Below are positions 369 through 34,491 of a stretch of DNA of 39,372 nucleotides, piece by piece. The position numbers and the translations under genes are program-made. Position 1 is the first letter of the stretch; every line of letters begins with the position of its first letter. Below the pieces are notes generated by a model, which did no database searches, had not been told where the DNA came from, and saw nothing but the letters and a program-made list of their open reading frames with translations. This DNA is from Polaromonas sp. 39-63-25 (GTDB lineage: Bacteria; Pseudomonadota; Gammaproteobacteria; Burkholderiales; Burkholderiaceae_C): positions 1 through 39,372 of the forward strand of contig NZ_NCJH01000030.1 in NCBI RefSeq assembly GCF_002278925.1, read 5' to 3'.

Positions 369-920
369 ATGGTTATAAACACCGCGTCAATCGAATCTGA
401 CTTTTTGGCAGCCAAAGCTAAAACGTCAGTCACCATCATGAATGCAATAGGATGGCAGGAAGGCGTTATTAATCCCAGTGCACTGGGCGTAGATTCCGTT
501 TTCTTCTATGTGTTCGACTACCAGACGAAGTGGATTTGGTGCTGTTCGATACCAAAAGATGCTTTCTTTGCGGTGATTCAGCAATCGGCAAACGTGGATC
601 ATTCTGCTTCTATCGTCTGCTGCGGTCAGATGATTGCCGAGTGCGCTGTGGGCAATGGCTTGAATCCCGACAAGGAAAACGATCTGGCTATTGCCCTGTC
701 GGCCTATATCAGCATCACTAGGTCGTATCAGCTCACAGAGCGAGCCACTAAGCAGAATCACTTCGTAGTGATCCGCTATGGATCGACTGACACCATTCGC
801 CCGTTTGCAATGGGTGGACCACCTCGCCATCTCATCCCTGCGGATGTCATTCACGAGTCCATGCAGAAGGTGATCGCTATGGATTCGCAAAATCACCCTG
901 AGTGGATTGCCAAACCATGA
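369..920 (+). CDS. Hypothetical protein, first gene of the restriction-type operon
   Basis: A 183-residue protein that I do not recognise. It starts at ATG 369 (MVINTASIES); a second in-frame ATG at 438 is possible. There is no signal peptide or membrane segment. It has a cysteine-containing middle (SIVCCGQMIAECAVG) and a C-terminal stretch FVVIRYGSTDTIRPF. Its stop codon overlaps the DUF1016 start (ATGA at 917-920), so the two are translationally coupled and it probably belongs to the restriction locus, perhaps as an accessory or control factor. Bases 102-368 upstream hold no convincing gene. Function unknown. Confidence 0.7.
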   Translation: MVINTASIESDFLAAKAKTSVTIMNAIGWQEGVINPSALGVDSVFFYVFDYQTKWIWCCSIPKDAFFAVIQQSANVDHSASIVCCGQMIAECAVGNGLNPDKENDLAIALSAYISITRSYQLTERATKQNHFVVIRYGSTDTIRPFAMGGPPRHLIPADVIHESMQKVIAMDSQNHPEWIAKP

Positions 921-6563: not shown

Positions 6564-6573
6564 GAGGCGCATC

Positions 6574-7878
6574 GTGTTTGACCTCCTTAACCTGCCGGGG
6601 GTAAAGCCGGTTGATCTGCATTACGGCAATCGTGTAATCACGGTCATTGCCGAAGTGATTGAAGGCCCCATTCCGTCATGCCAGGAATGTGGCGGACCAC
6701 TGCACCGCCATGGGCGCAGGACGAACATCTTTGCTGACACGCCCATGCAGATGCAGCCGGTACGCCTGGAAATATCCAGGCCTCGCTACCGTTGCATTAC
6801 CTGTTCAAAGATTTCCACGCCTGACTTGCTGTTTCTGGATGAGCGCAGACGGGCGACAAAACGACTGGTGGATGCAGTCCGCCAACGCTGCCTGGGGATG
6901 ACGTTTCACGCGCTGGCTGAACAGACCGGAGTAGCGGTCAACACCATCAAGAACATCGCTCAAGATCTGATTGTTGAGCTGGAGCGCACGGTTCGCTATG
7001 AAACCCCGGTCATCATGGGCATAGATGAACTGATGCTGGCGGGCGACTATCGATGCATGATTACTAACCTGGCCACCAACAACGTCTTTGAGATGCTGGA
7101 ATTTCGCACTCAGGACTACTTAAAACCGTTTTTCCAAAACCTGCCTGATAAAGAGCGAGTTGAGTGGGTTTACTCCGATATGTGGAGGCCTTTCAAAAGA
7201 TCCTTCAGTGAATATCTTCCCAATGCCAAGCTGGTGATCGACAAGTTCCACGTTGTCAAAATGGCGTCTGAAGCTCTTGATGATGAGCGCAAGAAATTCG
7301 AGTCAACGCTTTCCAAAAACGATCGAGTCCATATCAAGAAGTCAATTCGCTGGTTGACCTTGAAGCGGCCTGGGAATCTGACTCCGGCAGAAAAGAGCGC
7401 ATTGGAGGTTGTACGCCAATCCATTCCAGAACTGGGAGTGGCTTACGACTTCAAAGAGATGTTCTTCAGGATTTATGACGATCCGGTTAAAGAATCAGCG
7501 ATGCGAGCCTTCGAAGCATGGGAGAACTCACTGCCTGACAAGGAGTTGGAGAAATTCCATTCCTTGGTAAAGACGGTCCACAACCACTATGACGACATTT
7601 TTGCCTATTGGGATTCACCAAGCCAGATCACGAATGCCTATACCGAGTGCCTAAACGGGCTGATCAAAATGTCCAACAGGATTGGGCGCGGGTACAGCTA
7701 CGAGATCATCCGGGCAAAAACCCTCTATGCGAAAGAGGCACGCAAGGTCGGAAGCGGCATTCGCCTTCTGCCTGGTGCCGAAACTCCAGTTCCAAGCAAG
7801 TCAGCATCTGAGACTGTTGAGTATGGCCCCCACATCCCAACTTTGATTGAAATGGCAGAAACAGGAAAGATGGATTAA
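6574..7878 (+). CDS. ISL3-family transposase (or domesticated relative)
   Basis: A 434-residue protein with the ISL3 order. It has an N-terminal zinc-binding region (CQECGGPLHRHG, then RYRCITCSK), a helix-turn-helix (FHALAEQTGVAVNTIKNIA) and a DDE catalytic set: D151 in MGIDELML, D202 in YSDMWRPF and E358 in NAYTECLNGLIK. All key residues are present and there is no frameshift. The start is GTG 6574 behind AGAGG, only 10 bases after the hsdR stop, which leaves no room for a normal left terminal repeat unless it lies inside hsdR. I see no matching inverted repeat on the right. It may be part of the operon rather than an ordinary insertion. Confidence 0.88.
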   Translation: MFDLLNLPGVKPVDLHYGNRVITVIAEVIEGPIPSCQECGGPLHRHGRRTNIFADTPMQMQPVRLEISRPRYRCITCSKISTPDLLFLDERRRATKRLVDAVRQRCLGMTFHALAEQTGVAVNTIKNIAQDLIVELERTVRYETPVIMGIDELMLAGDYRCMITNLATNNVFEMLEFRTQDYLKPFFQNLPDKERVEWVYSDMWRPFKRSFSEYLPNAKLVIDKFHVVKMASEALDDERKKFESTLSKNDRVHIKKSIRWLTLKRPGNLTPAEKSALEVVRQSIPELGVAYDFKEMFFRIYDDPVKESAMRAFEAWENSLPDKELEKFHSLVKTVHNHYDDIFAYWDSPSQITNAYTECLNGLIKMSNRIGRGYSYEIIRAKTLYAKEARKVGSGIRLLPGAETPVPSKSASETVEYGPHIPTLIEMAETGKMD

Positions 7879-8058
7879 AAATGTCCCAGAACCAATTCGG
7901 AGACATGGCATGGCAGGTAAAAATGGCGAATTGGACAGCTCTTGCGACCGGCTCCTGCAGACTGAAAGCCGTCTTCGTTTTTCATTTCGCAGCGACTGCT
8001 GATACCAATACTGCTCGTTGAGTTGAGTACTGCTACGCTAAGTTCGTTTAGCATCTTG

Positions 8059-8078
8059 TTGCAATTGCGGAATTGCAA
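8059..8078. promoter_or_regulatory. 20-bp perfect inverted repeat upstream of the gaj operon
   Basis: TTGCAATTGCGGAATTGCAA: two 8-base arms around GCGG, about 100 bases before the gajA start. It lies in the 298-base gap after the ISL3 gene (7879-8176), where no convincing gene is seen. The spacing suits a repressor operator near the promoter; the binding protein is unknown. Confidence 0.5.
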
Positions 8079-8176
8079 TGATCGCGGGCCTGGGAGGGTA
8101 TTCGAAGCTCGCGTTCGATAGGTGGCCGGAAAGCGGGCTTCTGGCTACGCGCCCATTCCTTACAACTGAGAATGAC

Positions 8177-9937
8177 ATGGCTCAAACAGCACGTATTTTC
8201 AAGCTAACCATTCAACGGTTCAGGGGCATCCAGTCCCTAACGTGGCTGCCTGCGAAAGGAATGAACGTCATCCTAGGTGGGGGTGACGTCGGAAAAACGA
8301 CTGTCCTCGAAGCGATCGCGTTGCTGCTTTCGCCATCGAACACCGCGGTCATCTCCGAGGCCGATTACTGGGCACGTGATAGCGCACAGGAATTCGTCAT
8401 CGAAGCCGTCATGACTCTGCCCGATGCGACCGGGATCGGCTCGCAGAACACTTTCGCCTGGCCATGGGCGTGGAACGGGCAGGATGCCATCGCTCCGTCG
8501 GCCGACGGGGAGGGCGACCTTCCCGCGTCCGGCGAGCCGGTGTATCGCGTGCGCGTACGGGGTACCACGGAGTTGGAGCTCGCATGGGAGGTCATGCAAC
8601 CCAACGACGAGTTCGACCATTTCTCGACCGCCGTTCGCCGACGTATCGGCCTGGTCCGAATGAGTGCCGATGAGCGCAATGATCGTGACCTGCGCCTTGT
8701 CTACGGTTCCGCTCTGGATCGATTGCTGGCCGACAACGCGTTGCGGGCGCGTATAGGAAAGCAGGTAGCGGGCCTCAACTTGCACGAGTCGCTCAATGAC
8801 AAGGGCAAGGGGGCTATCGAATTGCTGGATACGCGTATGGCCAACGCCGCGCTTCCCAGCGCATTGAAACTCGGACTCACGACCAGCCAGGGGCTGTCCA
8901 TTGGTGCGCTGATCGGCTTGCTTGCGACCAAGAATGGCGTGGCCCTGCCCCTGAGTAGCTGGGGGGCAGGTACTAGACGGATGGCCGCGCTCGAAATCGC
9001 CTCATCGACGGACAAGGAAGCAAGCGTCACGCTCATCGATGAGATAGAGCGTGGCTTGGAGCCTTATCGCCTGCGCAAGCTCATCAATATCCTGGCCGGG
9101 CAGCACGGGCAGATCTTCCTCACGACTCACAGCCCTGTTGCAATCTCCTGTGCTGAGGCCGCACACCTTTGGTATCTGGACAGTCTGGGCTCCATCGGTG
9201 CGTTGCCACGAGACAAGATCGGTCCGCAGCAGAGGCGCGACCCTGAAACGTTCCTGGCGCGCGTTGCCGTCATCGCAGAAGGACCCACCGAGGTCGGGTT
9301 CTTGCAGTACCTGCTGGAGAAGGCATTTGAGGGCAATCCGCTCGACCACGGGGTGCGGGTTTGCGATGGTCAGGGCAATGGTGCGACCTTGGACCTCCTT
9401 GAGACGCTCGCGTCTTCCGGTTTGCTGTTTGCCGGTCTGGCGGACGACGAGGGCACCGCTCCGCAACGTTGGAAGAACCTGAAGGAAAAGCTCAAAGAGC
9501 GCGTGCACCAATGGCCGAAGGGTTGCACCGAAGATCATGTGATCGGGGCGGTTCCCGACGCGAAGCTCCTTGACCTACTGAAAGACAGCGAAGGCGAACT
9601 CGACGGCTATCGACTCCGCACTTTGGCAGATCGCCTTGGACTTCAAGACAAGACTACTGAGGCAATAGACGCAGCGCTGAAAGCTTCCAACCAAACTTGG
9701 CGTGGTCTGGTCATCGCAGCCGCGACCGGAAGTAAGGTTGGCGCTCCCGAAGGCCAGGAAAAAGTGTGGAAGAAGCATTCCCAGCAGTGGTTCAAGTCCA
9801 CGGACGGCGGGAGGGAATTGGCTCAGAAGATGGTCGCGCTTGGCGCGTGGGCAGAAATTCAGCCGCAGCTGCTGCCTTTGATCAACGCCGTACTAGTGGC
9901 TGTGGGGCGGCCGGTATTGCAAGGGCTGGATCTATGA
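8177..9937 (+). CDS. gajA: OLD-family ATPase/TOPRIM endonuclease, GajA-like (Gabija defence)
   Basis: A 586-residue protein. The N-terminal ABC-type ATPase has a P-loop at about residues 34-42 (GGGDVGKTT), a signature-like region LSSWGAGTRRM and Walker B TLIDEIERGLEPYR, followed by FLTTHSP. The C-terminal TOPRIM nuclease domain begins near residue 365 with VIAEGPTEVGFLQYLL and includes the acidic LADDEGTAP. Length and domain order match GajA, which nicks phage DNA and works with GajB. ATG 8177 (MAQTARIFKL) is preferred over the in-frame upstream ATG 8078, which would add 33 residues outside the conserved fold. It overlaps the helicase gene as ATGA. Confidence 0.88.
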   Translation: MAQTARIFKLTIQRFRGIQSLTWLPAKGMNVILGGGDVGKTTVLEAIALLLSPSNTAVISEADYWARDSAQEFVIEAVMTLPDATGIGSQNTFAWPWAWNGQDAIAPSADGEGDLPASGEPVYRVRVRGTTELELAWEVMQPNDEFDHFSTAVRRRIGLVRMSADERNDRDLRLVYGSALDRLLADNALRARIGKQVAGLNLHESLNDKGKGAIELLDTRMANAALPSALKLGLTTSQGLSIGALIGLLATKNGVALPLSSWGAGTRRMAALEIASSTDKEASVTLIDEIERGLEPYRLRKLINILAGQHGQIFLTTHSPVAISCAEAAHLWYLDSLGSIGALPRDKIGPQQRRDPETFLARVAVIAEGPTEVGFLQYLLEKAFEGNPLDHGVRVCDGQGNGATLDLLETLASSGLLFAGLADDEGTAPQRWKNLKEKLKERVHQWPKGCTEDHVIGAVPDAKLLDLLKDSEGELDGYRLRTLADRLGLQDKTTEAIDAALKASNQTWRGLVIAAATGSKVGAPEGQEKVWKKHSQQWFKSTDGGRELAQKMVALGAWAEIQPQLLPLINAVLVAVGRPVLQGLDL

Positions 9938-24739: not shown

Positions 24740-24768
24740 TTGACAGTGCCAACCCCCTCTGCTTAAAT
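24740..24768 (+). promoter_or_regulatory. Promoter for leader A and gene 24896
   Basis: TTGACA (24740-24745), a 17-base spacer and TTAAAT (24763-24768): a good sigma-70 promoter. The predicted start near 24775 lies directly before the first hairpin of the structured leader. Confidence 0.65.
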
Positions 24769-24776
24769 TAGATCGC

Positions 24777-24895
24777 TTTCGGATTTTCCGAATCCGCTGA
24801 CAACTGTCAGCATTTATCCACCCCTTACGGGAACCATGCGTTCCCTTTGGGGACATTGCTTGGTTCTCCCGTTTTTCCCTTTAATGGAGATGAAC
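24777..24895 (+). ncRNA. Structured 5' leader, copy A
   Basis: Four hairpins follow the promoter. P1 is TTCGGA/TCCGAA (24778-24792). P2 is GCTGAC/GTCAGC (24796-24811). P3 has CCCC...GGGG enclosing GGGAAC/GTTCCC (24821-24852). P4 pairs GTTC and TCC (24863-24869) with the Shine-Dalgarno GGAG and GAAC (24886-24895). P4 would hide the ribosome site of gene 24896. The same order occurs in copies B-F. Confidence 0.65.
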
Positions 24896-25195
24896 ATGTT
24901 GAGCCAAGTCTATGAATCAAAGTACGCAGGTTTTTGCGACCACATCGGTTACGTTTTGCAGTCGATGAGCGAAGAAGCCGGTAGCACTCTCAACAGTGCT
25001 GCAAAAAGCGGTGGCCCCGTTGCAGTGCAAGCACTGCTCGATGCCGTCATGGATGCCGGTCACCGTGCGGTGCTGGTGCAAGCTCTCAATTCACCCTCCA
25101 TTTCTGGCTGGGTGCGTGAGAAACTTGAAGTGTTTTTGTATGGCGATCGCAAGCAGGTTCCTGCTCTGTTCCATCGCGTGCGCACATTCCACTGA
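24896..25195 (+). CDS. Unknown protein under leader A
   Basis: A 99-residue, mostly helical protein (YESKYAGFCDHIGYVLQSMS, AVQALLDAVMDAGHRAVLVQ). No known family is recognised. ATG 24896 is selected among three in-frame ATGs (24884, 24890, 24896) because GGAG lies 6 bases upstream of it. It has its own promoter, a structured leader that covers the ribosome site, and a strong terminator at 25212, so it is a single-gene unit. Confidence 0.72.
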   Translation: MLSQVYESKYAGFCDHIGYVLQSMSEEAGSTLNSAAKSGGPVAVQALLDAVMDAGHRAVLVQALNSPSISGWVREKLEVFLYGDRKQVPALFHRVRTFH

Positions 25196-25211
25196 AAGTA
25201 AACAAGAAATC

Positions 25212-25244
25212 GGGTTGAGTCGCTTCGGCGGCTCAACCCTTTTT
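25212..25244 (+). terminator. Rho-independent terminator after gene 24896
   Basis: A 12-base stem with one mismatch (GGGTTGAG... / ...CTCAACCC) is closed by a TTCG tetraloop and followed by five T. Confidence 0.85.
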
Positions 25245-25371
25245 CGTTTCTGCATTCCCTAGTTCACCTTGACCGGGCAACACGTTCCCGTCGAGGGAAG
25301 GGTGCCGTTCATCGTTTACCAACTCAAAACGACATGAATCCCAAGAAATTCCCCTGGATGGCTCCCTGAGC

Positions 25372-25722
25372 ATGGCCATCACTTTCACGCAGTACGTTGA
25401 CTCACGACTTCACGATGCACGCCCGCGCGAGCTGCTCAGCCTGCTTAAAAGGCGTGTCGAGCTGATCGACGGAGCCCTACAGGCTCTACCCACGGTCGAG
25501 TTCGGCCACGATGCACCAAGCCGCATCAAATGGGACGCCAACACCTATCAGTGGCGCGTTACCTACTGGGTGATCAAGCGCACTCGAAGGCAAACCTGGA
25601 AAGCGATCTACGCTGCGATCGACATGATCCAGCCTGTCCTCTACACAGAAATCCAAACTGCCGTCGCTGCCAATTTAATCGCACTCCACAAGTCGGGCGC
25701 GACAACGTTTCAAGCCCGCTAG
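25372..25722 (+). CDS. Unknown 116-residue protein
   Basis: A 116-residue basic protein with aromatic residues in the middle (IKWDANTYQWRVTYWVIKRT) and a helical end (WKAIYAAIDMIQPVLYTEIQ). No known motif, signal peptide or membrane segment is seen. ATG 25372 is used; the Shine-Dalgarno is weak. About 175 bases separate it from the gene before, and a hairpin GGGCTGCT/AGCAGCCC (25732-25752) lies just after it without a T run, so the next gene may be transcribed with it. Confidence 0.6.
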   Translation: MAITFTQYVDSRLHDARPRELLSLLKRRVELIDGALQALPTVEFGHDAPSRIKWDANTYQWRVTYWVIKRTRRQTWKAIYAAIDMIQPVLYTEIQTAVAANLIALHKSGATTFQAR

Positions 25723-25837
25723 TCGACCTCGGGCTGCTCGCGCAGCAGCCCTTCGACCCGCAGGCCCGACCTACCAGAACCAGACCCTCCCTCACATGCC
25801 AAACGGCGATTGGGCGGGCGAAAACCAAGGATAAAAC

Positions 25838-26617
25838 ATGGCAAAAATCATCACCGTCCAGCTTTTGCTGGCATCGGACTCCGAAATTGAAATCGAATCC
25901 TTCGTCAAGAATGAGCTCGAGCAATTGATCGCCGCCACGAAGGGCATGATCATCGACGGCAAGGTTGCCGGCGCAAGCGCCGAACCGAGCCCGGACGTGC
26001 TGGAAGCACTCCGCACCGGAAACTACACCCAGGGCAAAGCGTTTGACCATGAAAATGGCAGCGCGCGCCGGCTGCTGATCATGGACGGCGACGTGTCGCC
26101 TTACATCATTGGGCCCTTTGACTCGGAGGATTTGCGGCTTGAAGCCGCACGCGTCCACCGGGCCGTAAATGGCGACCGTGACGGCATCTACATGCTCGAC
26201 GTGCCTCGCGGCATCGACCCGTTTGTGGACGCCTTCTCTGGAGCTGACCTGGAGGGAGGAGCAGATCCCTTGACGGCGTATGTCATCGGGGAGCTTACGG
26301 CCGGCAGGACTCCGATCACCCGTCTTGCGCTCGACGGGGCCCCCTACTGGCTCTTCTATCAGGGCGACGAGGTGCTGGTGAACAACACGATGCTCGCCTC
26401 GATTGAAAAGGGGCTGGGCACGGAACTGGTCCGCGTCGTTTCGACCATGCAGTCTGCCTTCATGACCCGGGTACAAGCGAAAAGCTCCTTCACCGAAAAG
26501 GACTGGGCAAAGGCCAGCAAGAAAGGATCGACGACTGAAACTTTCGAAGCCTGGGCCGAAACCATGGCATCGAACCTCCCGACAGCAAAAGACGTTCTGT
26601 CCGGGATCGTTGACTAA
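25838..26617 (+). CDS. Unknown 259-residue protein
   Basis: A 259-residue soluble protein with no motif I recognise. It opens with a strand-helix pattern (MAKIITVQLLLASDSEIEIE), then repeated acidic and hydrophobic segments (LLIMDGDVSPYIIGPFDSED). The end is helical (FEAWAETMASNLPTAKDVLS). The start at ATG 25838 follows AAGGA by 6 bases. A strong terminator follows at once (26626), so transcription ends here, before the Hsp90-type ATPase gene. Confidence 0.75.
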   Translation: MAKIITVQLLLASDSEIEIESFVKNELEQLIAATKGMIIDGKVAGASAEPSPDVLEALRTGNYTQGKAFDHENGSARRLLIMDGDVSPYIIGPFDSEDLRLEAARVHRAVNGDRDGIYMLDVPRGIDPFVDAFSGADLEGGADPLTAYVIGELTAGRTPITRLALDGAPYWLFYQGDEVLVNNTMLASIEKGLGTELVRVVSTMQSAFMTRVQAKSSFTEKDWAKASKKGSTTETFEAWAETMASNLPTAKDVLSGIVD

Positions 26618-26625
26618 AAATTGAA

Positions 26626-26659
26626 AACCGCTTGCCACTTCAGGCAGGCGGTTTTTTTT
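26626..26659 (+). terminator. Rho-independent terminator after gene 25838
   Basis: An AACCGCTTGCC / GGCAGGCGGTT stem (one G-T pair), a six-base loop, then eight or more T. Confidence 0.88.
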
Positions 26660-26693
26660 TGCCCGCGCGGCAGGGGAAACAGGCCGCCACCGT

Positions 26694-26722
26694 TTGCGGC
26701 CAACCCCCGCCAGGTGTAGGAT
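26694..26722 (+). promoter_or_regulatory. Promoter for leader B and the ATPase gene
   Basis: TTGCGG (26694-26699), 17 bases, TAGGAT (26717-26722). The -35 is identical to that of leader D (31160). Confidence 0.5.
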
Positions 26723-26723
26723 T

Positions 26724-26859
26724 CACCCCGTTATTGGTGCATACCAGTTCCGCTGACCTCCGTGCCAGCCTCATACTTTTCGGCCCTTGCGGCCTTCACC
26801 CATCGGGAACCAACCTTCCCGATGGGATGTGTGGTTCCCATTTTTTTTGGAAACCTCAC
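26724..26859 (+). ncRNA. Structured 5' leader, copy B
   Basis: P3 is an 11-base perfect stem, CCCATCGGGAA/TTCCCGATGGG (26799-26826). P4 pairs GGTTCCC (26833-26839) with GGAAACC (26849-26855) across a T8 loop, covering the GGA ribosome site four bases before ATG. Upstream, weaker P1 (CACC/GGTG, 26724-26739) and P2 (GCTG/CAGC, 26752-26769) stems and GGCC/GGCC (26782-26794) occupy the positions of P1 and P2 in other copies. Confidence 0.62.
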
Positions 26860-28848
26860 ATGACAACAACTACCACCCTCGCAACCGCCCCCGCTCAGAT
26901 CCCCGAGCAGAGCGTCGTCGCCGGCGTGAACGAGAAGAAGCTCTTCTCTACGATGAAGCACCTTTTTGCCACCAGCTTTTCGCTGGTCGGTGAGTTGATG
27001 CAGAACGCCAGGCGATCCGGCGCAACGCAGATCCTGTTCAACTTTGATCCAGAGGCGAAAACGCTGGAAGTCATCGATGACGGATGCGGCATCAGCGATT
27101 TCGGCAAATTGCTCGCGCTGTGCGACAGTGGCTGGGATGAGAAGGTCACGCTGGCGGATTCTCCGTACGGCATGGGCCTCTTCTCGTTGCACTTCGCCTG
27201 CTCACGGGCAACATTCCGTTCCAACGGTTTGAAGCTGCAAACCAGCCTGGACGACATCGTCAACAAGCGCCAGCTCGTGGCGGTGATCGACAACGATCCC
27301 GTGCGCCTCGGAACCGTCCTCCAGCTTGAAGGCCTCAGCAAGGACCTCCTTGGGAAAAGCATCGGGCCTCATTTCGGTCGCTCAACGGCCAACGCGAGCT
27401 CCCGCATGGAGGCATGCATCATCGAGCTGGCCATGGGCTTCCCCATCGATGTGCAATTCAATGGCGTCTCGGTCCCCCGACCGCACGCCCTTGAGAACTT
27501 GCAAACTGTTCTCACACCAGTTGGTCAGGTTCACATTGCGCACATCATGGCTCGCGACCACGACAAGAACGTGCGAGGCGATGAACTTGACGTGGTAGCC
27601 GGCAGAGCCTTGTATCTCCAGGGCCTGCCTATCCAGGTCAAGAACGAAATATATGCTCAGACAGTTGTGCATCTCGACAGCCAGCGCTTCGCCGCGATCA
27701 TGCCGGACCGAAAGGCTCTGTACAACGCGGCCGACCAGCTCGAGGAGCTGCGTGTTACGTTGCGCACTCTCGTGCAGCAGTTCCTGGTCGAACAAAAGGC
27801 TTCGCTGCCGGCAGAGACGTTTGTCGCGAAGTACTGGACCGCGTGCCTTCGGCACGATGTGCCTACGCTGCTCAATGACATTCCGCTGCTCCCCAGGCAA
27901 ATCATTTCGACAATCGAAACGCTTGCGGCGGACAGTGAAAGTCGTTTGGGCTATTTGCCCCGTGAGACGGAATTCATCAGCTGGAAGCAAATCCTGAACG
28001 GCGAATTCAAGGTCTGGCGGGACGTTCCTTCCTACCTCGGCAACTCTGAAGGTGAGCAGGCCGGCGCGCTTTGGCGGGTGATGCAGCTTGAAAATGTGGT
28101 CGAGGTCGATACCAACGGCCTTGATGCAGGACACTGGATCTTTGAAGCTACGCCATCGGCGGTCGACTTCAAGGTGGCAATCACCCACTCGGGGATCATC
28201 GCGAGCGATTCGACGTACTTTGATGACAGCGCCGTTGATGTACACCTGGTGAAATCAGTGCAGGTGGTGGTCACGTCCACCACAGACCCGAGCTTTGAAA
28301 TTGCGACGGCCGTCGACAGAGGCTGGATCCTGGAAGAAGTGGGTCACGACAGCTCAGGCGAAGTCACTCAGTTCAAGTGTTTTGTGACGGAGTCGGGGTC
28401 CTCCTGGGACTTCCCGGGAACCTTGCTGTCCAGCTACCGCGACGAACATGAGGTCTACCGCGAAGAATGGGAGGACGATGCACGGAAATCGTGGCGCTCA
28501 GTTGTCGCGGGACTCAAGGGCGCAAGCCTGGCAGACCAGCTTGCGGCGGCGCTTCCGGACGTCCGAATGTCACTCGGCAACCACAACCTTGGGCAGATGG
28601 CATTGATCTATGGGGCGGCTGATGGGTCGGACCCATCCGTCCAGAATGTATCGCCGCAGATGGAGATCGTCGACCTGAACGCCCCGGAATTCTGGCTGGC
28701 GCTGGCCAACCTTTTGGCCACCGCTGCCGGCGGATCACCAGAGGATCTCAAAAAGGCGTTTCTGACTGCTGCCGGCTCGCTGGTACCTGGTGCCGGCCTC
28801 ATGGCGAACTCGTCGACCGAGACACGGATTCAAGGCTCCACGTCCTGA
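26860..28848 (+). CDS. GHKL/Hsp90-type ATPase of unknown role
   Basis: A 662-residue protein with a GHKL ATP-binding domain at the front: N-box LVGELMQNARRSGA (E45, N49 region), G1 IDDGCGIS (about 72-79) and G2 SPYGMGLFSLHFA (about 101-113). The rest (about 200-662) has no motif I can name and may hold a middle domain like Hsp90/MutL (VHLDSQRFAAIMPDRKALYN). ATG 26860 is chosen because it sits behind the conserved leader; the frame is open further upstream but covers promoter and leader. It has its own terminator. Candidates are a chaperone, a MORC-like DNA-handling ATPase or a defence protein. Confidence 0.82.
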   Translation: MTTTTTLATAPAQIPEQSVVAGVNEKKLFSTMKHLFATSFSLVGELMQNARRSGATQILFNFDPEAKTLEVIDDGCGISDFGKLLALCDSGWDEKVTLADSPYGMGLFSLHFACSRATFRSNGLKLQTSLDDIVNKRQLVAVIDNDPVRLGTVLQLEGLSKDLLGKSIGPHFGRSTANASSRMEACIIELAMGFPIDVQFNGVSVPRPHALENLQTVLTPVGQVHIAHIMARDHDKNVRGDELDVVAGRALYLQGLPIQVKNEIYAQTVVHLDSQRFAAIMPDRKALYNAADQLEELRVTLRTLVQQFLVEQKASLPAETFVAKYWTACLRHDVPTLLNDIPLLPRQIISTIETLAADSESRLGYLPRETEFISWKQILNGEFKVWRDVPSYLGNSEGEQAGALWRVMQLENVVEVDTNGLDAGHWIFEATPSAVDFKVAITHSGIIASDSTYFDDSAVDVHLVKSVQVVVTSTTDPSFEIATAVDRGWILEEVGHDSSGEVTQFKCFVTESGSSWDFPGTLLSSYRDEHEVYREEWEDDARKSWRSVVAGLKGASLADQLAAALPDVRMSLGNHNLGQMALIYGAADGSDPSVQNVSPQMEIVDLNAPEFWLALANLLATAAGGSPEDLKKAFLTAAGSLVPGAGLMANSSTETRIQGSTS

Positions 28849-28880
28849 AGTCCCCATATCGGCCTTTCTGGCCAGAAATA

Positions 28881-28905
28881 CCCCCAGCCCGCGGCTGGGG
28901 GATTT
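28881..28905 (+). terminator. Hairpin terminator after the ATPase gene
   Basis: CCCCCAGCC/GGCTGGGGG with a short loop, then ATTTTC. A second, bidirectional terminator follows at 28981. Confidence 0.7.
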
Positions 28906-28980
28906 TCATCAACACAGAAATCCGGAAGGCCGGCTCGGAGGTCTTCGATGACTTCTTAGTGGTGCAACTTTAAGACTGAC

Positions 28981-29014
28981 AAAAAAAAAGCCCCGACTTC
29001 CGGGGCTTTTTTTT
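28981..29014. terminator. Bidirectional terminator
   Basis: AAGCCCCG/CGGGGCTT with a nine-A run before and eight-T run after. It serves the plus-strand ATPase unit and the minus-strand gene ending at 29027. Confidence 0.9.
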
Positions 29015-29026
29015 GCCTTCGAAGGC

Positions 29027-29374
29027 CTATCGTGAAGGAACGAGGGACAGACCTGGGCCGGCAGGCGTAGCTGCCTCAAAGGTGGCCAGCTGCTCATCAT
29101 TGAGCCAGGTGCCAGTCGTCTTCAAGGCCGCGAGCCTCCTCTTGTCCTCCGGGAAATTGACTTCGTTGTTCGGACCGAACTTCATCTTCTCGGTGGCCAG
29201 CGCATAAACACCGCCCATCCCATCTGTATTTTCGATCTCGTGCCGGACCTTCGCCAGTTCGCAGATCGCATTAAATTCAGCCGGCGTGCGCGGGCGCCAC
29301 GGTGCCCAGTTCATGCGCTGAAAAGCCTGCCACTCCTGGTCCGACATCCGAATTCGACCATCAACCAACATCAT
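29027..29374 (-). CDS. Unknown 115-residue protein
   Basis: A 115-residue hydrophilic protein, MMLVDGRIRMSDQEWQAFQR at the start, with no recognised family. Segments such as EFNAICELAKVRHEIENTDG look helical. The start is set by AGGAG 6 bases before ATG 29374. It has its own promoter (29415-29443) with a short leader hairpin CCTCC/GGAGG, and it ends at a bidirectional terminator. The longer upstream frame to 29554 crosses the promoter and is rejected. Confidence 0.75.
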   Translation of the reverse strand: MMLVDGRIRMSDQEWQAFQRMNWAPWRPRTPAEFNAICELAKVRHEIENTDGMGGVYALATEKMKFGPNNEVNFPEDKRRLAALKTTGTWLNDEQLATFEAATPAGPGLSLVPSR

Positions 29375-29414
29375 CTCGCTCTCCTGATCCCTCCACTTCG
29401 GAGGTTTGAATATC

Positions 29415-29443
29415 AGATTATCACCAGTGAATGCACTGTCAAT
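29415..29443 (-). promoter_or_regulatory. Promoter of gene 29374 (minus)
   Basis: On the minus strand TTGACA (29443-29438), 17 bases, TAATCT (29420-29415). It is back to back with the plus-strand promoter at 29463, about 20 bases away, so a single regulator could control both. Confidence 0.65.
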
Positions 29444-29462
29444 GAGGTCCGACTCCAATCTG

Positions 29463-29491
29463 TTGTGCACGCGCGAAAGCAGCCATAAAAT
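29463..29491 (+). promoter_or_regulatory. Promoter for leader C
   Basis: TTGTGC (29463-29468), 17 bases, TAAAAT (29486-29491). The first leader hairpin begins about 10 bases later. Confidence 0.55.
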
Positions 29492-29607
29492 TGCACTGTT
29501 TTCGCATTCTTGCGACTTCGCGCACAGACAAACCGTTTCGTGCGCCTTTACCAACCCACTGGGGATCTTCCCAGCGGGGCATGGTCCTCTTTTTTTTTGG
29601 AGGATCC
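29492..29607 (+). ncRNA. Structured 5' leader, copy C
   Basis: P1 is TCGCA/TGCGA (29502-29515). P2 is GCGCAC/GTGCGC with a 14-base loop (29520-29545). P3 is CCCACTGGG/CCCAGCGGG (29555-29578). P4 is GGTCCTC (29583) pairing with GAGGATCC (29600-29607) around a T9 loop, covering the Shine-Dalgarno GGAGG. It aligns with copy D from the -10 onward: 31 of the first 40 aligned bases are identical, although the genes downstream are unrelated. Confidence 0.7.
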
Positions 29608-29904
29608 ATGCAAATCACAATGAAATCGTCATCCTGCGCGCCCACGAACTGGGTGGCGCAACTGATGAACTTCGGCATCAAGGCCACGAGGCGCCCGTCG
29701 GTATTCGGGCGTACTGCGCATGTCTTCAAACTCCAGGGGGAGGCTGTTGAACTGCTGCAGGATCCGCAACAGACCGTGAGCTCGGTCGTTGAAACGCTGA
29801 CTCAGACCCAAAAGCGCATCGTGGACGCGCTGATCGCGTGCGATGTGGTCGTGAATGCTCCACAAGTTCCGAAACGCAAAGTGCGGGGCTACTGTGGGCA
29901 TTGA
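29608..29904 (+). CDS. Unknown protein under leader C
   Basis: A 98-residue protein, MQITMKSSSCAPTNWVAQLM at the start, with a helical centre (VVETLTQTQKRIVDALIACD) and a basic Cys-ending tail (KRKVRGYCGH). No known family. The start at ATG 29608 is four bases after GGAGG. It forms a single-gene unit between its leader and a strong terminator at 29970. Confidence 0.75.
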   Translation: MQITMKSSSCAPTNWVAQLMNFGIKATRRPSVFGRTAHVFKLQGEAVELLQDPQQTVSSVVETLTQTQKRIVDALIACDVVVNAPQVPKRKVRGYCGH

Positions 29905-29969
29905 AAGTGGTGTGCATCTTGGCTTCCAAGAGCAGATCAGCACTGGCCTCACGGCCAGTGCATCCCGAA

Positions 29970-30003
29970 AAGCGCGCAGTCTTCGGACGCGCGCTTTTTT
30001 TTT
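29970..30003 (+). terminator. Terminator after gene 29608
   Basis: AGCGCGC/GCGCGCT stem, then nine T. A second perfect hairpin, CACTGGCC/GGCCAGTG (29941-29960), lies just before it. Confidence 0.88.
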
Positions 30004-30009
30004 GGGCTA

Positions 30010-30240
30010 CTAGCCAGGAGAGGGGGAGGCGGGGTGCACGTCGCGAGGCTTGAACATGATGACAACCTGCACCTGACTGGCACCAACCCGGGCCCCGGTC
30101 ACATACTCGGCCCAGCCCTTTTCGACAGAACGGGCCACCAGGCCATCGAGCTCGTCTGTGGTGTCGCTTTCGAACTCCAGAAAGCGATGCGGCTTGCCCC
30201 GGAAGTTCGCCTCGACAATTTCATGTACTTTCCAGGCCAT
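30010..30240 (-). CDS. Unknown 76-residue protein
   Basis: A 76-residue protein, MAWKVHEIVEANFRGKPHRF, with a strand-rich end (GASQVQVVIMFKPRDV). The start at ATG 30240 follows the stop of the upstream minus-strand gene by nine bases, and GAGG of that stop region can serve as ribosome site, so the two are likely coupled. No known family. Confidence 0.6.
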   Translation of the reverse strand: MAWKVHEIVEANFRGKPHRFLEFESDTTDELDGLVARSVEKGWAEYVTGARVGASQVQVVIMFKPRDVHPASPSPG

Positions 30241-30249
30241 TGCAGGGCC

Positions 30250-30468
30250 TCAGCGCCATCTGATTCGTAGGTGAGCAGCGAAGGTCGTCCAGCACGCCGC
30301 GCAGCGCCACCGGCCTGCTGATGTCTCTACCCCGCCCGTCTCAGGCCTGGTGGACTTGCATGGACCGTAGCAAAGGCGATATCGACCCGAATTCAGATCA
30401 AAGGTGCCCGGCAGATCCGCCGGCGCATGGCGCGCGGCTGCCGTAGAGGCAATGGAAGGTAATGGCAT
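30250..30468 (-). CDS. Small putative zinc-ribbon protein
   Basis: A 72-residue protein whose second half has paired cysteines, LCYGPCKS and WRCAACWTTF, about 22 residues apart, as in a small zinc ribbon. The first 25 residues are Ala/Pro-rich and may not all be translated; ATG 30468 is the first start and has no clear Shine-Dalgarno. It is followed closely by the 30240 gene, which supports it as real. Function unknown. Confidence 0.5.
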   Translation of the reverse strand: MPLPSIASTAAARHAPADLPGTFDLNSGRYRLCYGPCKSTRPETGGVETSAGRWRCAACWTTFAAHLRIRWR

Positions 30469-30530
30469 GGGTGGACGTGTGAAAACGCGGTGAAAGAAGG
30501 GGGGAGAGGAGGGCGGTGAAAAATTGGGCG

Positions 30531-30564
30531 AAAAAAAACGGAGGTCCTTGATGGACCCCCGTTT
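30531..30564 (-). terminator. Terminator of the minus-strand gene at 30589
   Basis: Read on minus: ACGGGGGTCC/GGACCTCCGT stem with one mismatch, then eight T. Confidence 0.85.
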
Positions 30565-30588
30565 CCTGTGTAAATGCAGATTTCGACA

Positions 30589-30804
30589 CTAGCCTGAGGC
30601 TACCGCGAGTTCGAGACCAGAGGCTTGCGCCCTTGCTTTCGCACGCTGGTAGAGCGGCGTTTGACTCACCGGAGAGTTCCGCATGGCACGGAGCCACTTG
30701 CAGTCATAGAACTCTCCAATCTGGAATCTGGGCAAGTCGCCCTTTTTGAACTCTTGTTGAAAAGCGCAAAAAGGAGGACTCGCCCAGCCCGCAAGGAGCT
30801 TCAT
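30589..30804 (-). CDS. Unknown 71-residue protein
   Basis: A 71-residue protein from ATG 30804 (MKLLAGWASPPFCAFQQEFK), with a basic C-terminal half (PLYQRAKARAQASGLELAVA). A TTG start at 30891 would add 29 residues (beginning MATASRRFGHLW), and the real start is unsettled. The terminator directly downstream supports transcription on this strand. Upstream (30905-30955, minus) lie small hairpins TTCAGC/GCTGAA and CATCG/CGATG that resemble P1 and P2 of the structured leaders. No known family. Confidence 0.58.
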   Translation of the reverse strand: MKLLAGWASPPFCAFQQEFKKGDLPRFQIGEFYDCKWLRAMRNSPVSQTPLYQRAKARAQASGLELAVASG

Positions 30805-31159
30805 GACTGCCGATTTCTCGGCACGGCGTTTTGGAGAGTCCCTCAAGGTGTGAACCCAAAGATGACCAAAGCGTCGAGAAGCCGTTGCCAAACACCGTGG
30901 TGTTCAGCTGCAAATCCATCGGGTTAGCGATGTCGGAGATTCAGCAAGCTGAAAATCCTAAGTAAGGCGTACACAAGGCACGCGAGTGATGCAAGCATCA
31001 AACAAGCTTTTAGTTTACGCGAACAATGGGCGATTGCAAAGGATCCGGCTCACCGGCGAGGGCCCCTCGACGTTCAACGGGCCAATACCTGCGCGTTGAA
31101 GCAAATGCTTATGAGTAATGCGCAGGGTGTGCCCATCAGGCGCGGCCGGCCGCCATCGT

Positions 31160-31188
31160 TTGCGGCGGTAACGGCCGCATGGCAAAAT
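31160..31188 (+). promoter_or_regulatory. Promoter for leader D
   Basis: TTGCGG (31160-31165), 17 bases, CAAAAT (31183-31188). Bases 30892-31159 upstream show no gene I can support. Confidence 0.5.
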
Positions 31189-31306
31189 TCCACTGCTTTC
31201 GCAACCTTGCGAATCCGCGTGCAGAAACCTTTTCCAGCACGTCTTCATAAACCCACGGGAATTCAAGTCCCGAGGGACATGGATTTCCCTCATCACCAGG
31301 AAATTC
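31189..31306 (+). ncRNA. Structured 5' leader, copy D
   Basis: P1 is TTCGCAA/TTGCGAA (31198-31213). P2 is CGTGC/GCACG with a 14-base loop (31218-31241). P3 is CCCACGGGA/TCCCGAGGG with one mismatch (31252-31276). P4 is an 8-pair stem, GGATTTCC (31281-31288) with GGAAATTC (31299-31306), containing the Shine-Dalgarno AGGA and ending at the base before ATG. Of all copies this one has the clearest pairing over the ribosome site. Confidence 0.72.
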
Positions 31307-31609
31307 ATGCAAATCCACCTCACCGTGCCCATTACGGTCCACACCGCGAAGAAGCGCAAGCTCGAGTTGTTGCCGGTTATTCAGGACATCCCGCGCCCAA
31401 GCGACGACGCCAATTTGTTGGGTCGCTTTCTCAAGCCCGGCGGAGTTCAGGTTCCGCTCGTGCCAGGACAAAGCACGCTCATTCAGAGCTACATGCTCCG
31501 GAACAAGACGGAAGCGCTGAGCGAAGACGGCATCGTTGCCTTCACTCTGCAGGGCGACACGCTCATTGAATGCCTCCACGAAGTGGGCATGACGCCAACC
31601 GAAGCCTAA
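31307..31609 (+). CDS. Unknown protein under leader D
   Basis: A 100-residue protein, MQIHLTVPITVHTAKKRKLE, with mixed strand and helix segments (GIVAFTLQGDTLIECLHEVG). No recognised family. The start at ATG 31307 follows AGGA by about 5 bases inside a hairpin. Two genes follow (31705 and 32097) before the terminator at 32590, so this is the first gene of a three-gene unit, with another leader hairpin set between the first and second. Confidence 0.72.
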   Translation: MQIHLTVPITVHTAKKRKLELLPVIQDIPRPSDDANLLGRFLKPGGVQVPLVPGQSTLIQSYMLRNKTEALSEDGIVAFTLQGDTLIECLHEVGMTPTEA

Positions 31610-31616
31610 CTGGGCA

Positions 31617-31704
31617 GGGGCACCGCCCCGGCTCAAACGGAAACCAACCAAACCCATGCGGGCCCGCCCGCATGGGCGCTCCGCATGACACTTACGAAAA
31701 GTGA
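31617..31704 (+). ncRNA. Structured leader, copy E (internal)
   Basis: P2 is GGGGC/GCCCC (31617-31629). P3 is CCCATGCGGG/CCCGCATGGG, 10 bases perfect with a 4-base loop (31653-31676). P4 is CACTT/AAGTG (31689-31703), two bases before ATG 31705. No promoter is seen between the preceding stop and P2, so this copy acts on a read-through message. P1 is not evident. Confidence 0.55.
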
Positions 31705-32094
31705 ATGCAAATGAAAAAAATCGAACCTGGAACTGTCCCCACTGAAGTGGCACCGGACAGCAGCAGCGGCGTCAAAAATGCGATTGTGATTTTTATTGAA
31801 GGCCAGCAGGTTTCACATCGCTTTACCACCCAAACGGAGGGTACCGCGTACCTCGAGGGGGTCCCAGAAACCTCCGAGGCAGCATCGTTGATGATCCTCG
31901 ACAGTGACATACCGGCAGAATTGCTGCTCAAAACTTCCCCAGTGCTGCAGGAACGCCTGCAGGAAGCAAAGCGCAAACTCACGGCATTCCTGAAGCTCAA
32001 GGAAACACTGGATCGCCATGGCGTGCCGAAGGATCGCGCGCTCCGTGGCGCGATTCACAAGGCCTTCAGGGAACTGACGGCAAGTGGCGACTGA
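31705..32094 (+). CDS. Unknown protein under leader E
   Basis: A 129-residue protein. The first 20 residues are flexible (MQMKKIEPGTVPTEVAPDSS), the middle is strand-rich (NAIVIFIEGQQVSHRFTTQT) and the last half is a long basic helix pair (RLQEAKRKLTAFLKLKETLD). Two in-frame ATGs (31705, 31711) are possible. The next gene begins two bases after the stop, so they are coupled. No known family. Confidence 0.7.
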   Translation: MQMKKIEPGTVPTEVAPDSSSGVKNAIVIFIEGQQVSHRFTTQTEGTAYLEGVPETSEAASLMILDSDIPAELLLKTSPVLQERLQEAKRKLTAFLKLKETLDRHGVPKDRALRGAIHKAFRELTASGD

Positions 32095-32096
32095 GC

Positions 32097-32552
32097 ATGG
32101 AGACGCTGCAGGTCGACACGACCCGCTGCTGCACAAGGGTGCACGCACAACTGTGCCTGGTCACCATGAACGAGCAGCTGCACAAGCGCCGCGGCCACTG
32201 GTTCGCAGTCCAATCGCAGGCTCACTCACACGTGGCATTCACAACCTGCGATTCATTGAACCTTTGGCTCGAAGAGCGAGCAATCGCCCTGACGCAGGTG
32301 ATCCCCGAAATGGGCACCTTCAGCTATCAAATGCTGCTTGGCGCGTACAAAACATGCCACTGGCGATGCCTGGACGGATTCGAGTCCCTCAAGGCTCACG
32401 CCCAGGAAGCGCGCGTTTTGTCCCACGGCACATACACGCTGGGTTTGATCACTAAAGACGATTCGGGTATCACGGTCGTGAACTCGCTTGATCCCAGTGT
32501 GCCCGGCCGCCAGACCTTCGACTCCCAGGAGTCTGCCGGCCGGTACCGGTGA
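32097..32552 (+). CDS. Unknown 151-residue protein
   Basis: A 151-residue protein with several Cys and His residues in the first two-thirds (TTRCCTRVHAQLCLV, HSHVAFTTCDSLNLW, AYKTCHWRCLDGF), which may bind metal. The C-terminal part is polar. The start at ATG 32097 lies two bases after the previous stop. It ends the three-gene unit, with a very strong terminator 38 bases later. I do not recognise the family. Confidence 0.7.
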   Translation: METLQVDTTRCCTRVHAQLCLVTMNEQLHKRRGHWFAVQSQAHSHVAFTTCDSLNLWLEERAIALTQVIPEMGTFSYQMLLGAYKTCHWRCLDGFESLKAHAQEARVLSHGTYTLGLITKDDSGITVVNSLDPSVPGRQTFDSQESAGRYR

Positions 32553-32589
32553 CGGATGTGATCAGAACAAATAGCCATTCCAATGCAAA

Positions 32590-32628
32590 GAGCCCTCCCC
32601 GCAACGCGCGGGGAGGGCTCTTTTTTTT
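32590..32628 (+). terminator. Strong terminator ending the 31307-32552 unit
   Basis: A 13-base perfect stem GAGCCCTCCCCGC/GCGGGGAGGGCTC, a five-base loop and eight T. Confidence 0.93.
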
Positions 32629-32643
32629 GATTTCGACTTTTCG

Positions 32644-32898
32644 TCAGACTTCCGCGAAGCGCGAATTGGCCACAGTGGAGATCCGCGCCAACAGCTTCTT
32701 CACGAAGTTCTGTGTGATCGGCTCTGGAGGTGTGAGCGGCTCAGCGGTCAGGACTGGGTAGTCCGCTTCTGAATCCCACTTGGAAGCCGTACGCCGGGTA
32801 AGGGCCTTGCGTGCAAATTCGAGAGCAGCCTCGCTGTTTGGAGCAACGGAGATGCCAACTTGTTTGCCGTCGGCGATGATTTTGAAGACTTGGTTCAC
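32644..32898 (-). CDS. Unknown protein under leader F
   Basis: An 84-residue protein (from GTG 32898: MNQVFKIIADGKQVGISVAP) with a compact strand-helix start and a helical centre (SEAALEFARKALTRRTASKW). TTG 32904 is two codons upstream and also possible. AGAAAG lies before the start. It reads toward the strong terminator at 32590-32628, from its own promoter and structured leader. No known family. Confidence 0.68.
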   Translation of the reverse strand: MNQVFKIIADGKQVGISVAPNSEAALEFARKALTRRTASKWDSEADYPVLTAEPLTPPEPITQNFVKKLLARISTVANSRFAEV

Positions 32899-33000
32899 GT
32901 TCAATCTTTCTGTAGAGAGACGGGAACCGACCCTGACGGGAGGACCCCGTCAAGGTAAGGTAAGGCTGGTTCTGGACCAGCGTACTGGCAAAAGCCAAGT
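32899..33000 (-). ncRNA. Structured 5' leader, copy F (minus)
   Basis: In minus-strand order: P1 TGGC/GCCA (32997-32986), P2 GCTGGT/ACCAGC with a 5-base loop (32981-32965), P3 TGACGGG/CCCGTCA (32952-32934), then GGTTC (32928-32924) able to pair with GAAC (32902-32899) or GAACC (32896-32892) at the start codon. P2 matches copy A in position and stem length but not sequence. Confidence 0.6.
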
Positions 33001-33006
33001 GATCGA

Positions 33007-33034
33007 AGTTTAACCACCGGGCGCCGCCCGTCAA
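33007..33034 (-). promoter_or_regulatory. Promoter for leader F (minus)
   Basis: On the minus strand TTGACG (33034-33029), 16 bases, TAAACT (33012-33007). P1 begins about 10 bases later. Confidence 0.5.
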
Positions 33035-33044
33035 TCGATTGGAG

Positions 33045-34277
33045 TCAGCTCTCCCACTCCGGCAGGAGGTGGGCATCGCTGTACCCAGCGAAGCCCATGA
33101 ACCTGCGCCGCGCACCCTCTACATATTGAAGCATCCGCTCTGAAGCCAACCACCTGCGCCCTGTCAACTCAGCGGCCAGAGGGCCGGTGAACCAGCCAGC
33201 GAAGTTGTCGACCATCGTGTCGCCGGGACGAGTGAGATATTCGATCAGGAACTTGGCCAGCGCCAGCGGAAAGGTGGCACCGTGCACTGGCAACCCCTGT
33301 TCCTTCGCGAATCTGCGCACCTCCGTCTGGCTGTGGCAACGGCCGCCGAACTGCAGGACGTTCCGTGGAATTCTGCCTTCTGTCGGCGCCCCAAACGAGC
33401 CCGGATAGATCTTGTTCGCACCGTCACCATAGACGCCTGTTCGATTCTCCCCGCCCTTGGCGATCAACTTGAGGTGGCGTTCTGTGTGCGGCTGCAGCAC
33501 GCGCTGATTTGAAGCGAACATCCTTGAAGGGTCATTGGAAAAAATGTAAATTGGCTCATAGCCGGTGTTTAGCAACACTCGTTCTTTGCTTGCCCAGGCG
33601 ATTGGCCCTGGCGCTTTGGAAGCGTTGGACCATACCAGGGAATCGACTTTGTACAGACCAAGTTTTTCGTGCAGGGCAATTACAACCCTCTCCGGGGTCA
33701 AGGAGCGAGCCGGCAGACCTTTTAGGAATACATCCTGAGTTATGTTCAGCGCGATCGTCCCGCCAGCCACGAGGTTTTTGACAATGGGTTCCATGGCTCT
33801 GCAGATGAAATCCACATACAGGCTCTCGGCGATTCCCCCGTATGCCCTCGGCCGGTCGATGCAATAGGGCGGGGAGGTAAGGCAACAGTGAATGGGTTCA
33901 TTGAAACCTTTGAACACGTCCGCGCAGTCCCCCCACAGTGCAAGCCCGAGCTTTGTGGAAAAGCCGAGAAGGACGGTCCGCCTTGGTGCCGGCGTCAGCT
34001 CGCCACGGGCCTTCGCAGTGGACCGCCACACCCCGCGTTCGCCCGGTACCTTTTCGAGCAACCCGAGCGCGCGGAGTGAATGTTGGGCCCACCGGATTTT
34101 TCTGGTGACCGGATTGTGGAGGGCTCGATCCTTCCCGGTCGGCACCCTCTCAAGCAGGGCGCCCTCGGGGATCACCTTGTCGATGGAAAGAGACTTGTAG
34201 AGTTGGTCATTTCGGAGGGGTTCTCCTCGGCTGTACGCGGCCATCAGCGGCTTGAAGAGATCTTGCTGCAGGTTCAT
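33045..34277 (-). CDS. DNA methyltransferase (N6-adenine/N4-cytosine, beta type) with Mrr-like N-terminal domain
   Basis: A 410-residue protein. Residues about 1-95 look like the Mrr N-terminal winged helix (RNDQLYKSL, then RKIRWAQHSLRALGLLEKVP and GVWRSTAKARG). The methylase part has catalytic TSPPY at about 134-138, and the AdoMet motif VDNFAGWFTG near 354-363 comes after it, the beta-class order. ATG 34277 is used; TTG 34328 is an alternative. No restriction enzyme gene is adjacent, so it is an orphan methylase, possibly protecting the element or controlling its genes. Confidence 0.88.
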   Translation of the reverse strand: MNLQQDLFKPLMAAYSRGEPLRNDQLYKSLSIDKVIPEGALLERVPTGKDRALHNPVTRKIRWAQHSLRALGLLEKVPGERGVWRSTAKARGELTPAPRRTVLLGFSTKLGLALWGDCADVFKGFNEPIHCCLTSPPYCIDRPRAYGGIAESLYVDFICRAMEPIVKNLVAGGTIALNITQDVFLKGLPARSLTPERVVIALHEKLGLYKVDSLVWSNASKAPGPIAWASKERVLLNTGYEPIYIFSNDPSRMFASNQRVLQPHTERHLKLIAKGGENRTGVYGDGANKIYPGSFGAPTEGRIPRNVLQFGGRCHSQTEVRRFAKEQGLPVHGATFPLALAKFLIEYLTRPGDTMVDNFAGWFTGPLAAELTGRRWLASERMLQYVEGARRRFMGFAGYSDAHLLPEWES

Positions 34278-34491
34278 TTCAGTTGTACTGGCCCTGTCGG
34301 CTCGGGCATTAGCTGTGGTTGGGAACAACCATCCAGACTAAGGTAGCCCACTGTTCGCCTGCGTCAAGCCCGCCGCCGCAGACCTTCCCCTCGACATCGG
34401 TCAGGTGTCGTGTCTCGGTCTACAGAACTTGCGTTTGGGGATGCCTGGCCATCGCATACCCGCCCAATTGGAGCCAGCTGGGAGTTCGCGC

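Follow-up and report, generated by a model that had tools for sequence, protein, structure and literature searches.

In translational riboswitches, an alternative RNA structure governs the access of the ribosome to the message, and leaders that hide a ribosome-binding site are of a known kind. The radC RNA (RF01754) and the DUF3085 RNA (RF02959) are catalogued motifs of unassigned function. The radC RNA is listed in PMC2864571, which also describes the STAXI RNA (RF01728), a pseudoknot-like element near DNA-handling genes. A 2026 paper reports that, of all factors, DUF3085 has the strongest enrichment in broad-host-range plasmids and that it is often found beside RadC (PMC12826799). The stretch described here is an entire contig of 39,372 bases (NZ_NCJH01000030.1, hereafter the window) from the 4.83-Mb genome of Polaromonas sp. 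39-63-25, in which a family of structured leader RNAs precedes unrelated genes. Each leader appears to end in a common expression platform, composed of a hairpin (S1), a strand 3' of it (X') and the ribosome site, and covariation together with predicted energies suggests that this platform is probably a default-off translational switch working by strand exchange and used element-wide.

The consensus of S1 is CAACCC-N-GGG-NNCC-loop-CCC-N'-GGG, where the loop and the inner arm constitute the strand X, and X' lies just 3' of the hairpin. As first read from related leaders, X' is complementary both to the ribosome site and to X; X and the ribosome site resemble one short word, and X' between them pairs with either. 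The words vary from leader to leader with their complementarity kept, for instance, GGGAACC, GGTTCCC and GGAAACC in leader B, and GGATC, GGTCC and GGAGGATCC in leader C (X, X' and ribosome site, respectively). In several leaders X' contains CAUGG, complementary to CCAUG, so that the pairing can extend through the start codon beside the Shine-Dalgarno sequence (SD), as in C and D. The 70 nucleotides (nt) upstream of S1 are also structured, with a mean energy z of -1.66 and 22 of 55 leaders below -2. By eye, the bases UUCAA recur beside S1.

The S1 hairpin was modelled from 20 hand-picked cores (model R1; four from the window, five from Hydrogenophaga, seven from Azospira and four from Polaromonas), with neither the X:X' nor the X':ribosome-site pairs in the covariance model, and a second model (R2) was built from 56 matches. 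The hand-made sets omitted three copies with S1 atypical or not found (L033 16850, L034 20916 and L030 17866). In the 56 aligned matches, the covariation score of S1 was 0.222 versus 0.104 after shuffling (0/500) and at most 0.092 when the partner strand was slid, in an alignment that was fitted to S1 and so favours the S1 score. S1 pairs changed on both sides numbered five versus 3.8 after shuffling (77/500), not clearly in excess.

The two pairings outside the model were tested by duplex energy, with each leader's own partners compared with partners permuted between leaders, which keeps composition and conserved words; the comparison is not phylogenetic, and same-segment controls guard against relatedness. 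In 55 leaders (one of the 56 being dropped as it had no start codon), X:X' gave a z of -17.0 and X':ribosome site a z of -11.6, with 0 of 20,000 permutations reaching them, and the controls were flat (X:ribosome site, z 0.8; 40 nt upstream:X', z 0.6; upstream:ribosome site, z 0.0). Similarly, 58 leaders from held-out genomes, left from 77 matches after removal of five without a start codon (72) and 14 near-duplicates, gave z values of -16.6 and -12.2 (0 of 10,000 each) with no excess in the controls (z -0.7, +1.2 and +2.8). Twenty platforms linked to radC RNA, left from 32 after removal of 12 near-duplicates, gave z values of -5.5 for X:X' and -6.1 for X':ribosome site, with controls at +2.8, +0.5 and +0.9. 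Four of 71 matches from integrative and conjugative elements (ICEs) were dropped as partial, and the pairing sets exclude the window leaders A and E. A first permutation test (n = 27) had one empty X' row and X' cut short in several others, and was superseded by the tests on the 55 and the held-out leaders. Taken by covariation across the family, X' has two partners, the S1 loop, which would leave the ribosome site open, and the ribosome site, which would be shut; a sequestering strand with an alternative partner is what is looked for in a translational switch. Sequence statistics show that S1, X:X' and X':ribosome site are paired, and how widely these pairings occur.

The leaders of the window and the genes under them are given below in order of position, with scores from an R2 scan of the window run without filters; the R2 alignment included B, C, D and F, but not A and E.

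24769-24895, plus strand: leader A, with P1 at 24778-24792, P2 at 24796-24811 and S1 at 24821-24852 (18.7 bits); X at 24829-24836, X' at about 24857-24870, ribosome site ahead of the ATG at 24896.
25262-25315, plus strand: seventh, weak candidate platform (12.8 bits, E 0.17), preceding the open reading frame (ORF) 25372-25722.
26724-26859, plus strand: leader B, with P1, P2 and P3 hairpins and S1 at 26799-26826 (38.9 bits); X GGGAACC at 26805-26811, X' GGTTCCC at 26833-26839, ribosome site GGAAACC at 26849-26855.
26860-28848, plus strand: gene under leader B, an ATPase, weakly MutL-like.
29492-29607, plus strand: leader C, with P1, P2 and S1 at 29555-29578 (43.3 bits); X GGATC at 29563-29567, X' GGTCC at 29583-29587, extended CATGGTCCTC, ribosome site GGAGGATCC at 29599-29607.
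29608-29904, plus strand: gene under leader C.
31189-31306, plus strand: leader D, with P1, P2 and S1 at about 31252-31276 (30.5 bits); X at 31257-31264, X' GGATTTCCC at 31281-31289, ribosome site AGGAAATTC at 31298-31306.
31307-31609, plus strand: gene under leader D.
31648-31704, plus strand: copy E, with an S1-like hairpin at 31653-31676 and a small hairpin before the ATG at 31705.
32905-33000, minus strand: leader F, with P1, P2 and S1 arms at 32945-32955 and 32931-32940 (20.6 bits).

An earlier note on this DNA, made from the letters alone, had claimed one leader family with hairpins P1 to P4 before at least five, probably six, unrelated genes, the last hairpin including the SD. There are five sound leaders (A, B, C, D and F), for which the claim of one family before unrelated genes stands; copy E is doubtful, a weak fragment scoring 9.7 bits (E 1.3) with no clear P1 or P2 and a weak X', and 25262-25315 is a candidate that the note had overlooked. 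Four of the leaders (A, C, D and F) show both P1 and P2 when folded, and B has a P1, a weak P2 (GCTG/CAGC) and an extra P3. What the note called P3 is S1, found in the five leaders by fold and by R2, and its P4 is X', the 3' strand that in each of the five folds back onto the ribosome site or start region. The inclusion of the SD holds in B, C and D, where X' is predicted to pair with both the SD and the start codon. In A, the SD is predicted to be paired inside a larger fold that extends into the coding region, and F fits less well, as X' folds across the start region and its pairs surround the start codon, leaving the SD largely unpaired (0.68); the gene starts near 32904, with an uncertain start codon. 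The likeness of C and D was counted as 32 of 40 from AAAATT, next to 31 of 40 in the note. An element-wide family with the ribosome site paired and covarying agrees with the tests above (z -11.6 and -12.2), and a likeness by chance only, the outcome that the note had set against its own idea, is contradicted by them in the 55 and the 58 held-out leaders. The check it had proposed, a covariance model and a search of plasmids, gave S1 matches on many related plasmids. The earlier interpretation is thus partly supported; the note had not seen that X' has a second partner in the S1 loop, that the family extends to many plasmids and ICEs, or that it is connected with the radC and DUF3085 RNAs.

Compared with 200 dinucleotide shuffles, the whole leaders have energy z values of -4.1 (A), -5.1 (B), -6.7 (C), -4.6 (D), -3.5 (E) and -3.4 (F), and the 5' domain alone gives -3.8 (A), -3.5 (C), -3.5 (D) and -3.4 (F), with -0.3 in B and -0.1 in E. 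Contig 38 of the same genome (4127-7208) holds copies of the B and C region at 92-93%, the B copy being without its 5' part and leader. The leader of the C paralogue there (L006) differs by five substitutions and one indel; by eye, four of the substitutions fall in hairpin loops and one makes an unpaired U of the ribosome site paired. Also by eye, a leader resembling A precedes the gene at position 19409 of locus L034, and the first ATG past 25262-25315 opens a very short ORF reaching the start of ORF 25372-25722.

In the proposed mechanism, a closed S1 would leave X' on the ribosome site and translation off, the predicted default; X would take X' by a toehold-like invasion of the S1 loop, whereupon the site would be freed and translation turned on, the X:X' form being a nested hairpin or a trimmed pseudoknot. 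Which state wins would be decided by the variable 5' domain (P1-P3 in the window, radC or DUF3085 RNA elsewhere), answering an element-wide signal. The pairings apart, the act of switching, its default to off, what the 5' domain does and the signal are inferred. In folds constrained to S1, X' stays on the ribosome site, and enforced X:X' pairing is predicted to open the SD in 48 of the 55 leaders, 48 of the 58 held-out ones and 19 of the 20 linked to radC. In these three sets, the median energy advantage of the S1 state is 4.4, 4.5 and 5.0 kcal/mol (1.8 in the 55 under a looser definition), so that the default is predicted to be off. An initial definition of the X:X' state, which forbade only the outer arm of S1, often left X' paired with the ribosome site and was replaced.

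Several results weigh against such a switch. X' ranks its own ribosome site first in 6 of 55 leaders, with a median rank of 7, and the two states lie within 5 kcal/mol in only about half of the leaders (27/55, 29/58 and 10/20), which means that many could change state only with substantial assistance. Passing to the X:X' state exposes the start codon further in no more than 34/55, 27/58 and 12/20, and in the held-out set its median opening drops from 0.81 to 0.67. In leader F, the SD is open in both states (0.68 and 0.71), A being outside that calculation. A full X:X' helix of 10 base pairs leaves about four S1 pairs with loops of 0 and 1-2 nt, which makes a comfortable pseudoknot unlikely and strand exchange the likelier geometry. 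The energies, moreover, leave aside co-transcriptional folding, proteins and ribosomes.

The T-runs directly after X' in B and C could be read as transcription attenuation, with X:X' and the T-run forming an intrinsic terminator and S1 the antiterminator. At least six T within the 8 nt past X' are found in 18/55 and 17/58 leaders; however, such a run is lacking in 37/55, 41/58 and 19 of the 20 radC-linked platforms (present in one), and attenuation leaves the leader-specific complementarity of X' and the ribosome site (z -11.6 and -12.2) unexplained, making it very improbable as an account of the family. Low whole-leader z values (-3.4 to -6.7) and an S1 state with a median advantage of about 4.5 kcal/mol would also be expected of a passive stabiliser or insulator, in which stable 5' hairpins protect the mRNA or hold translation low with no switching, but neither X:X' pairing nor a strand that covaries with two partners would be needed in a passive hairpin, and this explanation is considered unlikely. 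A protein operator is a more serious, though still doubtful, proposal: a protein of the element or the host would bind S1 or the 5' hairpins and repress or activate translation, as in the autoregulation of ribosomal proteins, with the alternative pairing as the read-out. It would suit the one architecture found ahead of many genes of a single element and the UUCAA recurring beside S1 by eye; no such protein was identified, though no systematic search was made. Such an operator is compatible with, and not opposed to, the strand-exchange switch, which is retained here as the probable mechanism.

The platform is spread over a number of plasmids, reached via relatives of the proteins under leaders B and D. 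At E<=1, where the weakest matches may be chance, R1 matched four conjugative plasmids, that of Rhodoferax ferrireducens T118 at 18 places, that of Hydrogenophaga sp. PBL-H3 at 22, that of Azospira sp. I09 at 14 and plasmid 1 of Polaromonas sp. JS666 at 24, and matched the control, a Caballeronia plasmid, at one; of the four, Rhodoferax alone supplied no seeds and so gives an independent count. The matches lie largely on one strand, namely 16/18 in Rhodoferax, 21/22 in Hydrogenophaga, 13/14 in Azospira and 23/24 in Polaromonas (73/78 in total). R2 was used on eight plasmids, all picked for carrying a relative of protein B, and at E<=0.1 gave eight matches on an IncF plasmid of Enterobacter ludwigii, three in Vibrio gigantis, six in Methylomonas, seven in Piscinibacter, 12 in Sulfuricystis and seven in Rhodanobacter (one of them a reverse-strand double), and none on those of Paraburkholderia fungorum and Caballeronia. 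A search with one stretch of the leader region from Enterobacter gave no E. coli relative.

The genome of the window itself has 18 R1 matches at E<=5, which fall also on contigs 22, 30, 38 and 50 and, more weakly, on 31 and 44; these platform-bearing contigs may be parts of one large plasmid or of several. In surveys that score only some 20 candidates per genome, platform matches were found in 67 of 299 family genomes at E<=0.1, of which some 30 may be chance, and 38 of 299 at E<=0.001, the own genome included. At E<=0.001, the class survey found the platform in 18 of 274 genomes and the phylum survey in 4 of 249; G114 and the own genome are counted in every survey.

The same genome also carries a canonical radC RNA (contig 17, 27890-28038, 131 bits) with a platform 3' of it. 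Over its cut-off, radC RNA was found in 8 of 250 order genomes and 2 of 11 chosen genomes or records (the own genome in both). In all 32 radC loci examined, which leave out at least three listed copies (two of them without a locus), an R2 platform lies on the same strand, directly 3', followed by a start codon; being on related elements, the copies are not independent of one another, and R2 scores reach down to 9.3 bits. The platform starts between 35 nt inside and 26 nt beyond the radC 3' end, the radC model ending before the platform in 24/32 loci and extending 23-35 nt into it in 8/32. The 149-position radC domain is absent from the window leaders: radC RNA has no match above 40 bits in the window, nor a permissive one in the leader region.

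The last bases of the DUF3085 model, UCAACCCacCGGG, correspond to the 5' arm of S1, and the model stops halfway through the hairpin. A Polaromonas leader has, by eye, the same GCUGG...CCAGCC-UUCAA as the model. Candidate counterparts of the model's tail, UCAACCC..CGGG, again by eye, are CAACCCAC.GGG / AAACCCACGGG in C and D and UCACCCAUCGGG in B, with A and F departing more. No match was found in the window (cut-off 40.6 bits), and none over the cut-off in the 250 order or 299 family genomes. The best match in the surveys (40.1 bits, G187:C77, 88631) is followed by a platform by coordinates, and the best sub-cut-off matches running into a platform are at L155, L167, L264, L266, L274 and L277. 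Among 20 loci with sub-cut-off DUF3085 matches, four (L264, L266, L274 and L277) have a 3' platform and 16 have none at E<=1, so that most such weak matches look like chance. Rfam at the gathering score gave no match in the window or in loci L030-L033, and at permissive E, in the leader region, L033 9100-17000 and 20 family-survey loci, only two DUF3085 matches on leaders. Since the platform lies 3' of radC and the DUF3085 model ends in S1, both motifs appear to be alternative 5' domains of a single platform for the control of translation, one left unannotated in Rfam. The window leaders bear other 5' domains than these.

The genes under the window leaders had no match in Pfam, NCBIfam or PHROGs except the weak MutL-like one for B, and the R2 window scan placed no platform ahead of the methyltransferase at 33045-34328. 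Elsewhere, platforms precede genes for PRTRC ParB (Polaromonas), PRTRC E and F (Polaromonas and Hydrogenophaga), a toprim protein and an ATPase like that under leader B (Azospira), a DEAD/DEAH helicase and a primase-helicase (Hydrogenophaga), and a methyltransferase (Rhodoferax); only parts of these plasmids were annotated here, and many platform-preceded genes have no assigned function. A region of the window is like the Polaromonas plasmid, with DUF1173, bactofilin, and then an A-like leader and a relative of protein D. On that JS666 plasmid (L139), platforms at record positions 169335 and 195970 lie, by eye, within annotated genes, whose annotated start codons may therefore be too far upstream. 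Window positions 902-6563 hold a YhcG-like nuclease, a type I specificity subunit and a type I restriction subunit, and 8078-9937 an AAA/OLD-like protein, perhaps together a defence cluster on the element (902-9937).

It is tentatively proposed that conjugative plasmids and ICEs of Beta- and Gammaproteobacteria share a modular RNA system, in which a universal strand-exchange platform at the ribosome site, with swappable 5' sensor domains (radC, DUF3085 and several without a name), would control the translation of up to dozens of genes per element under one signal, perhaps the entry into a new host. Two orphan RNA motifs would thereby become parts of a larger system with an explicit mechanism, and many uncharacterised plasmid and ICE genes would be joined in a putative translational regulon. 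If the platform responds to the entry of a new cell or to a clash with the host, it would bear on the establishment of big plasmids. It also points to start codons. Redesigned gene by gene, the platform's three-way complementarity would be nature's parallel to synthetic toehold switches.

No description of the platform was found in the open-access literature, among the matches listed, and the 3' hairpin may already have been noticed by those who described the radC and DUF3085 motifs. As far as open-access listings show, what is new is the shared platform, the covariation of one of its strands with two partners, its use across whole plasmids and the linking of two motifs. With radC RNA the family has in common that it is a leader RNA of mobile elements. 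The STAXI RNA, which had no Rfam match in the window, is a pseudoknot repeated at least twice in tandem, whereas here a single module per leader lies at the ribosome site. In kind, the proposed switch resembles translational riboswitches and the tisB standby pseudoknot, where an alternative structure decides the access of the ribosome. The tisB system (PMC7708055) involves a distant standby site and the protein S1 on one mRNA; in the window family, by contrast, one platform is placed before many genes, under several 5' domains.

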